Assembly: GCA_038881635.1 (NCBI GenBank)
Contig: JAVZPJ010000003.1
Coordinates: forward strand, 1 to 64,000
DNA: 64,000 nt
Direction of reading: 5' to 3'
From: Sulfolobales archaeon
GTDB lineage: Archaea > Thermoproteota > Thermoprotei_A > Sulfolobales > AG1
The translations under genes and the position numbers were made by a program. Positions within the stretch are counted from its first letter, which is position 1. Each line of letters begins with the position of its first letter. This document shows positions 44,054-46,061 of this stretch, in pieces. A model generated the notes under the pieces. That model saw nothing but the letters and a program-made list of their open reading frames with translations. It was not told where the DNA came from and ran no database searches.

Positions 44054-44371
44054 TCAGAGATTATCAACATTACTGCTTTGGTTCTTGCAAGGATCATTAC
44101 TAGATTTATCGGAGGAGGGTCTTAGGACCTTTTTAAACATGCTTGCAAAGCTATTTACTCTCTTATTTTCTATTATTTCTTTTTCTTCTCCAGGTTTTCT
44201 CTCAGCTGTTACTGTATATATTTTTAATCCTTTCAGCAGTACTATGGCTCGCTCTACTGCTTCTGCTTCTTCTCTTGTTATCGGTTCTTTATTTTCATAG
44301 CTATGCTTAGATATATATCTATCTAGATTCTCCTCTACTTCCTTCAGTTTCTCTCTATGGACCTCTAAGAT
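44054..44371 (-). CDS. unknown helical protein with no canonical start codon
   Basis: The minus-strand frame ending at TGA 44056-44054 encodes a charged, helical protein of about 105 residues (LEVHREKLKEVEENLDRYIS, KEPITREEAEAVERAIVLLK, YTVTAERKPGEEKEIIENKR). It has no ATG, GTG or TTG before a late internal methionine. Upstream in frame there are only ATC (44371), with AAGGA eight bases before it, and ATT (44398). It overlaps the DUF6062 gene end by 17 bases. The opposite-strand frame at 44085-44300 is its shadow. Function unknown. Confidence 0.5.
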   Translation of the reverse strand: MLEVHREKLKEVEENLDRYISKHSYENKEPITREEAEAVERAIVLLKGLKIYTVTAERKPGEEKEIIENKRVNSFASMFKKVLRPSSDKSSNDPCKNQSSNVDNL

Positions 44372-44867
44372 CTGTTTTTTCCTTAGACTCCTCCCAATAT
44401 CTTATGATCGATCTTAAATGCTTTAAACAGAAAATAGCCTTAGATCTTCTATAGTCTTCTGGATTTAAACATTCTCTATAGAGGGTTGTATATCTATCTT
44501 CAGCATCTTTAGAGTATTTGCACATAAAACATTTATATGAAGGATCGCCACCACTATCTATGATCTCTTCAAGAGAATCTCGAAGTTTCTTTAGAGCATC
44601 AAGATATAGTATTGATACTCCTAATCTATCGTGAATCCTTTCAGCTGTTTCTAGCAACAACCATGCATGATTTGTACATAGCCCGAGGCTTTCTAGAAAT
44701 CTAACTCTAACATCCGGATCTAGCACGTTCTCATAGAGAAGATTCTCAGCATACTTAGCTTCTCCGGTAGAGACTAGATAGCATATAGGGCAGATACTCT
44801 GATCAAGCCCTTCAACATATACAGCACCAAGGATCCCACTACATAAATTACTCTTATCTCTCATCAT
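44355..44867 (-). CDS. DUF6062-like cysteine/histidine protein
   Basis: A 170-residue protein with two related modules: CPICYLVSTGEAKY...LCTNHAWLLLE (residues about 27-77) and CFMCKYSKDAEDRY...FCLKHLRSII (about 112-157). The pattern CxxC...C(x)nH repeated twice is that of the DUF6062 family, probably metal-binding. ATG 44867 (or 44864) follows GAGGTGATGA. Function is unknown. It lies in a run of four overlapping minus-strand genes. Confidence 0.75.
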   Translation of the reverse strand: MMRDKSNLCSGILGAVYVEGLDQSICPICYLVSTGEAKYAENLLYENVLDPDVRVRFLESLGLCTNHAWLLLETAERIHDRLGVSILYLDALKKLRDSLEEIIDSGGDPSYKCFMCKYSKDAEDRYTTLYRECLNPEDYRRSKAIFCLKHLRSIIRYWEESKEKTDLRGP

Positions 44868-44871
44868 TTCA

Positions 44872-45084
44872 TCACCTCTTCTCAAAACCTAGGTATTTGG
44901 CTAGCATTTCAGAAAGTACTTTATGGAGATCCTCATAAGCATCATCTGTGGTTCTGCAGAACGCTACCATACCGCTGAGTCTTATAGTTTCCACTTTAGC
45001 TTCTTCGAATAGTCTTGAGAGTTTGAATCTTAATGAGGCTTCTCTAGATCTGAGTTCGAGAAGTTTTTCAAAAGATCTATGCAT
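44872..45084 (-). CDS. small helical protein in the DUF6062 cluster
   Basis: A 70-residue protein (start ATG 45084, overlapping the upstream stop as ATGCATAG) with a basic coiled-coil N-terminal helix (RSFEKLLELRSREASLRFKL) and a second helix near the C-terminus. The frame is open to 45168, but the longer version has an odd Arg/Lys-rich N-terminus inside the upstream gene. Function unknown. Confidence 0.55.
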   Translation of the reverse strand: MHRSFEKLLELRSREASLRFKLSRLFEEAKVETIRLSGMVAFCRTTDDAYEDLHKVLSEMLAKYLGFEKR

Positions 45085-45241
45085 TCTTCTTGATGCAAGC
45101 TCTCGCCTTCTCTTGAGCATCATAGATTTTTTTGAGATCCTCTTCAATCTCTTTAATAGCTTTTTCAAGGACCTCGATATTTTCTAGAGTGATTTTCAAG
45201 AGCTCCTCGAGAGTTTCTCTATTGCTACAAATCCCTCCCAT
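45077..45241 (-). CDS. 54-residue coiled-coil protein
   Basis: Starts at ATG 45241 with AGGAGACACCTCC upstream. The product is one long amphipathic coiled coil (EELLKITLENIEVLEKAIKE, EIEEDLKKIYDAQEKARACI). The frame is open to 45358, but that extension is unlike protein. It is the first gene of a four-gene overlapping cluster ending at 44054. Function unknown. Confidence 0.6.
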   Translation of the reverse strand: MGGICSNRETLEELLKITLENIEVLEKAIKEIEEDLKKIYDAQEKARACIKKNA

Positions 45242-45746: not shown

Positions 45747-45830
45747 GCCGGGGTGCCCGAGCGGTCTAAGGGGCTGGCCTTGAGAGCCAGTGGGGGAAAC
45801 CCCGCGCGGGTTCAAATCCCGCCCCCGGCG
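45747..45830 (+). tRNA. tRNA-Ser (TGA)
   Basis: The full cloverleaf can be drawn. Acceptor stem GCCGGGG/CCCCGGC has discriminator G. Anticodon stem CTGGC/GCCAG encloses loop CTTGAGA (anticodon TGA). A long variable arm (TGGGGGAAACCCCGC) follows, as in class II serine tRNAs. T arm GCGGG-TTCAAAT-CCCGC. No intron and no encoded CCA. Confidence 0.95.
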
Positions 45831-46061
45831 CTCAAACTCTTCGTAGGCTCTTAAAAATGCGATCTCTCTCACGAAGCCAGCATTGAAGGGAGGTTTGCGA
45901 ATATGAGGCGATGTAATATGTTTTGTTTTTTACTATTTATATAGAGAGTATCTTAATTATAGAAGCTTTCAATATTCATTCTCCCAGATCCTTTAAGAAT
46001 GAAATGATCTTATTTCTCGCTTTTTATCTTTTCAAATACAATGATATCACGGGTGTAGTAG

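Follow-up and report, generated by a model that had tools for sequence, protein, structure and literature searches.

A split DUF6062 gene and two small helical partners form a candidate translationally coupled module in a Sulfolobales archaeon, with related gene sets in Thermococcaceae

Introduction

Overlapping gene pairs are reported to be coupled by termination-reinitiation (PMC6728339), and short gene overlaps are described as enriched among the subunits of heteromeric complexes (PMC10666635). As in such pairs, the genes of the locus analysed here are co-directed and overlap slightly or lie a few nucleotides apart, but the overlap between its first two genes is 8 nt long, rather than 4 or 1, and coupling is predicted for it from the sequence. 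Passages of a third paper mention ribbon-helix-helix (RHH) and coiled-coil proteins only in connection with an integrated element (PMC4158269).

The third gene of the locus belongs to DUF6062 (PF19538), a family whose function is listed as unknown in its Pfam entry. A literature search found no paper that names DUF6062 or PF19538, and nothing on the module described below.

The DNA studied, referred to as the window, is a stretch of 64,000 nucleotides from a Sulfolobales archaeon (assembly GCA_038881635.1, contig JAVZPJ010000003.1, positions 1 to 64,000). The module region is found at a single place in this 1.4-Mb, 97%-complete draft genome of 18 contigs. Its features are as follows.

45077 to 45241, minus strand: P1, the first module gene, encoding a protein of 54 aa that is helical/coiled-coil as judged from its translation
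44872 to 45084, minus strand: P2, encoding a protein of 70 aa with a helical core and the motif ETIRLSG...KY; overlaps P1 by 8 nt (ATGCATAG)
44355 to 44867, minus strand: DUF6062 piece A, 170 aa, holding both C2CH modules (PF19538)
44054 to 44401, minus strand: DUF6062 piece B, the C-terminal third in the +1 frame, no separate gene (PF19538 positions 190 to 238)
44355 to 44401, minus strand: overlap of pieces A and B, 47 nt, with the frame switch inside it and a six-A run at 44375 to 44380

Results

The window holds three genes, not four

A sequence-only reading of the window had described four minus-strand frames overlapping end to end, and an ORF check places these frames on that strand at the positions listed above. 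The overlap stands for the first pair, where the P2 ATG lies inside the end of P1 and the two genes share the 8 nt ATGCATAG. P2 and DUF6062, however, abut rather than overlap, since the DUF6062 ATG lies 4 nt past the P2 stop. The SD sequence said to run across a stop codon is present as GAGGTGAT, which straddles the stop of P2, and the duplicated CxxC and CxxH motifs were recovered as two tandem C-x2-C ... C-x2-H modules (CPIC/CTNH and CFMC/CLKH), all within piece A.

The last frame had been taken for a fourth gene without a canonical start. It is indeed open from 44057 to 44401, with a stop at 44054 to 44056, and it contains no ATG, GTG or TTG start that would yield 40 aa or more; as a separate gene, however, it does not hold, being the C-terminus of DUF6062. 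Four independent genes were ruled out, as frame 4 matches the end of PF19538 and is in frame in relatives. We conclude that the cluster consists of three genes. A tRNA-Ser (tga) gene (45747 to 45831) is found on the plus strand, some 500 nt upstream of P1.

The DUF6062 reading frame is split in the window and continuous in nearly all relatives

Piece A scores 44.3 bits against PF19538, above the curated cut-off of 27 bits, and is thereby a member of the family. Residues 10 to 58 of piece B match positions 190 to 238 of the 243 in the same profile with 19.7 bits (E 6e-4), which is below the 27-bit cut-off. The gene therefore carries the C-terminal region of DUF6062, but in the +1 frame, and can be described as a frame-shifted member whose split sets it apart from the family norm. 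A DUF6062 search of the whole genome gave no copy beyond pieces A and B.

In the closest relative (G002, 63% identical in the matched part) the sequence corresponding to piece A runs into that corresponding to piece B as one ORF. A first alignment (A3, 21 relatives and the window) had been picked for long ORFs and is partly circular on this point, and the span test was rerun on all 36 loci of the window's class and on 40 Thermococcaceae loci. A single ORF crosses the split site at 34 of the former and 39 of the latter. The class exceptions are L147, which gave no match, and L152, which is broken earlier; the Thermococcaceae exception, G306 (L243), is split at profile position 171/177, compared with 174 in the window, in a different frame relation and beside a short A run. 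Because one ORF spans the site in nearly all relatives, we conclude that, judged by its sequence, DUF6062 in the window is a split gene with a +1 frame change in the 47-nt overlap.

Relative to G002, both pieces show more silent than amino-acid change, with dN/dS values of 0.15 (NG86) and 0.31 (YN00) for piece A and of 0.28 (NG86) and 0.57 (YN00) for piece B. We lean slightly towards the explanation that the split stems from an error in assembly or sequencing, or from a strain-level mutation, and that the organism has a one-piece gene. The frame switch adjoins the six-A run, the genome is a draft in 18 contigs, dN/dS is below 1 in both pieces, and the count of continuous loci in both groups points in the same direction. 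Against this, DUF6062 is broken also in G002, G120, G145 and G306, so real decay is plausible. An error or mutation at this site would be compatible with the three-gene module, and fits inside that explanation.

Alternatively, programmed frameshifting, or gene fission at the linker after the second C2CH site, would give two DUF6062 products, which we regard as very improbable. The sequence of the A run would allow lysyl-tRNA to pair again once it has slipped by +1, the frame that follows is uninterrupted over 115 codons, and the split in G306 falls at a nearly identical profile position, also by a short A run. That locus is, however, the only one of the 76 others to be split there, its frame relation differs and its neighbours are broken too. 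In the closest relative, the sequence at the site differs and the frame is continuous. The conservation of the split among relatives that a programmed +1 frameshift would call for was thus not found.

In G002 itself, the DUF6062 gene (L042 8308 to 8907) is truncated at the 5' end, is without the first C2CH module and is preceded by unrelated sequence.

DUF6062 is predicted to be an all-helical, metal-binding protein

The C2CH motif of DUF6062 is one that we take to be a zinc site, and the two copies probably bind metal, which by motif would be zinc. An AlphaFold2 model was made from the sequence of a relative (L153, with 17 relatives) and not from the window's own split protein; it is all-helical, with a mean pLDDT of 84 and a pTM of 0.78. 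No convincing relative of this model was found among solved folds (best E 1.5 with Foldseek; best Z 3.6 in the combined Foldseek/VIA-align search), which is not proof of a new fold, and a PDB sequence search with DUF6062 returned nothing significant (best E 0.34). Both C2CH modules precede the frame change, and the long helix 160–187, among the best-predicted parts of the model, falls mostly after it. Since the frame shifts only after both metal sites, the last third of DUF6062 would be made only in the case of an assembly error or of recoding.

Searches of viral contigs gave four DUF6062 pattern matches, none of which was confirmed, and among plasmids a single weak DUF6062-like match was seen, on a Thermomicrobium megaplasmid, where its neighbours are HEAT-repeat, amidohydrolase and hypothetical genes. 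In a Dictyoglomaceae locus (L174 2926 to 3345) the gene after DUF6062 itself carries CxxC and CxxH motifs, which makes it look like a piece of a DUF6062 module.

P1 and P2 are a conserved pair

P1 gave only weak matches in Pfam, NCBIfam, PHROG and PADLOC, which we read as chance coiled-coil likeness, and P2 matched no family in the same four collections. Both genes recur in relatives, however obscure to these databases: a P2 profile (A1) finds 33 of the 229 class genomes at E ≤ 0.01, a few of these hits being weak or owed to the related protein c6 described below, and P1 homologues lie upstream of P2 and overlap it. The first-start frames of P1 and P2 overlap in all 18 unfused loci in which both were called; the P1 threshold is lax here, with scores of only 9.9 to 12.1 bits at three of these loci, and five of the 18 had supplied the P1 profile. 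Seven further loci have P2 and no P1 call. Both profiles match one and the same ORF in G075 (two copies), which is a fusion, and an ORF of G038 appears by eye to be fused in the same way, with its P1 part below the profile cut-off. Gene order is not fixed, as G004 has DUF6062-P1-P2, and in G001, from the window's genus, P1-P2-DUF6062 is found among other neighbours. P1 and P2 are thus a real, conserved pair that is sometimes fused.

P2 belongs to a wider family, some members of which have an RHH-like extension

Many DUF6062 loci have beside DUF6062 a protein of about 190 aa, c6, in which an N-terminal extension is followed by a P2 domain (P2 against c6, hhalign E 4.7e-7). The same arrangement was found for a Thermococcus protein encoded beside DUF6062 (E 4.2e-6 against P2 in a profile comparison), and c6 and the Thermococcus family are less firmly linked when compared directly (E 4.6e-4, probability 33%). 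The real comparisons scored 30 to 43, compared with 11 to 17 for reversed sequences and 15.5 to 20 for the best of 30 column shuffles. Judged against these controls, the sequence comparisons place P2, c6 and the Thermococcus proteins in one wider family.

The N-terminal stretch of the Thermococcus P2 relatives shows the pattern expected of RHH regulators (PF01402), with RHH_1 matching two of 16 members (best E 1.9e-4) and NikR residues 2 to 47 aligning at a weak E of 0.25. Unlike those regulators, the relatives continue into the helical P2 domain, for which no Pfam model is convincing, and P2 of the window has no N-terminal RHH domain at all, starts directly at the P2 core and falls in no Pfam family. 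Three c6 members gave no RHH match, and a c6 model (mean pLDDT 69, pTM 0.43) shows the P2 domain as one long and one further helix and has no confident strand. The extension of P2 relatives therefore resembles an RHH domain only weakly.

The coiled-coil gene that accompanies the Thermococcus P2 relatives was considered as a homologue of P1. This was not supported by hhalign (E 0.0066, probability 6%), which aligned P1 equally well with the P2 family or better, and the two are equated by position only. One Thermococcus P2-family query found no match among plasmids, and one P2-family query found none among phages.

DUF6062 and the P2 family keep company in the window's class

P2 or c6 occurs in 28 of the 34 class genomes with DUF6062 over its cut-off, compared with 41 of the 195 others (Fisher p 8.5e-12, with weak P2 and c6 matches counted and the 229 genomes treated as independent). 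When all 40 DUF6062 matches at E ≤ 0.01 are taken, 30 have P2 or c6 (p 1e-10, with genomes again treated as independent). The association between the P2 family and DUF6062 exceeds chance.

The genes are adjacent in 16 of the 28 genomes, in six families. P1-P2 adjoins DUF6062 in five (G000, G001, G004, G212, G221) and c6 adjoins it in eleven (G006, G008, G014, G026, G028, G035, G051, G108, G110, G181, G182), and order and strand vary at these loci, with arrangements that range from head-to-tail overlap to convergent genes. In the remaining 12 genomes the genes are far apart or on different contigs; these are drafts, in which distance is not proven. At several loci where c6 is not adjacent (L045, L135, L139 and L136, L138, L141, L144), DUF6062 lies beside other recurrent small genes, encoding a protein of about 125 aa with cysteines near its start and one of about 105 aa that had no Pfam match in the one member tested.

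Co-conservation, which the sequence-only reading had proposed as a check, is thus borne out for the P2 family, but incompletely. Six of the 34 DUF6062 genomes have neither P2 nor c6 (G002, G018, G102, G133, G145, G148), and among these DUF6062 is truncated in G002 and has an inner stop in G145. Conversely, 41 of the 69 class genomes with P2 or c6 have no DUF6062. Together with the 12 genomes in which the genes are not adjacent, this indicates that neither DUF6062 nor P2/c6 always needs the other.

A similar gene set recurs in Thermococcaceae

DUF6062 is present in 55 of 94 Thermococcaceae genomes, and synteny was read at 40 of these 55 loci. At 39 of them DUF6062, a coiled-coil gene of about 100 aa and a P2-family gene of about 140 aa follow each other in this order on the same strand; in the exception, G326, DUF6062 is without the two partners beside it. 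The 39 include the decayed locus of G306, which has a broken DUF6062, a shortened coiled-coil gene and a broken P2-family gene. With lengths taken from mechanical first-start ORFs, DUF6062 and the coiled-coil gene overlap by 10 nt in 20 of the 39 loci, and the coiled-coil and P2-family genes overlap by 4 nt in 18; most others in both pairs overlap more, and a gap separates the first pair in G252 and each of the two pairs in the broken G306. In G323 the coiled-coil gene is fused to the P2-family gene.

P2-family copies of at least 180 bits are found in 53 of the 55 genomes with DUF6062 and in 4 of the 39 others (p 6e-19, genomes treated as independent); one of the two exceptions, G239, has a partial P2-family copy on the same contig. 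A weaker second paralog brings the P2 family to 93 of the 94 genomes. DUF6062 is an optional member of the set in G267, since the coiled-coil and P2-family genes persist there without it.

Genes of unrelated function might be kept together by genome compaction only, and both families do also occur alone in many genomes. The same company is nevertheless kept in six class families and in Thermococcaceae despite changed order, strand and surroundings, and we think it improbable that compaction is all there is to it.

P2 pairs are also found beside other genes

In family f11, which we guess to resemble Sulfolobaceae, an operon for NADHdh, Proton_antipo_M, Complex1_49kDa and Oxidored_q6 proteins has P1-P2 as its last genes at the 3' end (operon loci L115 to L119, L123, L113 and L035; Pfam was run on the G216 copies at L117 only). 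In G212 and G221, DUF6062 follows P1-P2 beside such subunit genes, and its cysteines would suit a metal-site chaperone. P1-P2, and DUF6062 with them, could on this evidence serve a membrane complex of the kin of complex I and group-4 hydrogenases, as accessory proteins or in its assembly, their other locations being relics. We consider this unlikely: 21 of the 229 genomes, but only 8 of the 33 P2 genomes, encode a close relative of the 49-kDa-like subunit (E < 1e-90), no 49-kDa-like match was found at 1e-20 in G000, G001 or G004, and no recurrent neighbour at the Thermococcaceae loci resembles such a subunit. As a general rule, the association with a complex-I-like operon was ruled out by this co-occurrence (8/33 P2 genomes).

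A gene of a prenyltransferase-like toroid protein (Pfam assignment from L167 and L286) is present at 31 of the 40 Thermococcaceae loci, and at 30 of the 34 loci that could be mapped it immediately precedes DUF6062. Some Thermococcaceae have, in addition, a second coiled-coil/P2-family pair, which adjoins an HhH-GPD glycosylase-like gene at all six loci read (L280 to L285; Pfam on L281, sequence likeness for the other five). The set around this second pair holds a nucleotidyltransferase-type gene in G304, G303 and G278, joined in G303 at least by a HEPN gene, and a gene that by eye is PIN-like in G254.

Small overlapping gene pairs are also what a toxin-antitoxin or defence module would look like, and the second P2-family pair is interrupted in some Thermococcaceae by an NTP_transf_2/HEPN or PIN-like gene (PIN by eye). 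The PADLOC matches are, however, weak and to coiled-coil-rich models (best E 0.0027), one P2-family query each gave no plasmid or phage match, and synteny in Thermococcaceae is stable, all of which leaves little probability for such a module.

Discussion

The sequence-only reading had proposed coupled translation and a joint complex for the products of the cluster. Both are supported, though not proven, by the overlap of P1 and P2 at 18 of 18 loci, by the fusions, and by the company kept in two groups of archaea. In the window the genes are co-directed and lie at the very short distances expected of coupled genes (8-nt overlap, 4-nt gap). The genes also appear to decay jointly elsewhere: in G306 two of the three are broken and the third is shortened, and G002, with its truncated DUF6062, has no P2 or c6 match in its genome. 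Because of the overlapping, co-directed genes, the fusions, the joint decay and the recurring company, and in view of the enrichment of short overlaps among complex subunits (PMC10666635), we favour, with moderate confidence and on the strength of sequence comparison, the view that P1, P2 and DUF6062 form a translationally coupled heteromeric complex. Any specific biochemical role for that complex is given much less weight.

In such a complex, the small helical subunits P1 and P2 would pair to give a coiled-coil scaffold, on which the all-helical DUF6062, with its two C2CH sites, would dock as a metal-binding client or effector. Translation of the three genes from one message, through overlapping or abutting frames, would be expected to favour assembly in a fixed ratio. 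In the many other lineages in which P2 has an RHH-like extension, the complex would probably sit at DNA, as a regulator or adaptor. P2 of the window is without this extension, so it would act there as scaffold only, or reach DNA via a partner.

The occurrence of P2 pairs also beside the complex-I-like operon, the HhH-GPD gene and the toroid gene suggests an adaptor shared by several partners. Taken further, hyperthermophilic archaea could possess, in P1-P2, an undescribed and duplicated family of two-subunit coiled-coil adaptors, in which paralogous pairs serve the DUF6062 metalloprotein, an alpha/alpha-toroid prenyltransferase-like protein, an HhH-GPD DNA glycosylase and a complex-I-like membrane complex, and tether them to DNA where P2 carries an RHH-like domain; we put this forward as a tentative idea that is more likely wrong than right.

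The analysis joins helical genes of 50 to 190 aa, previously unannotated, into one family. Thermococcaceae include genetically tractable species. For DUF6062, a family with no assigned role, the set of partners that recurs in the window's class and in Thermococcaceae offers a concrete and cheap functional test.
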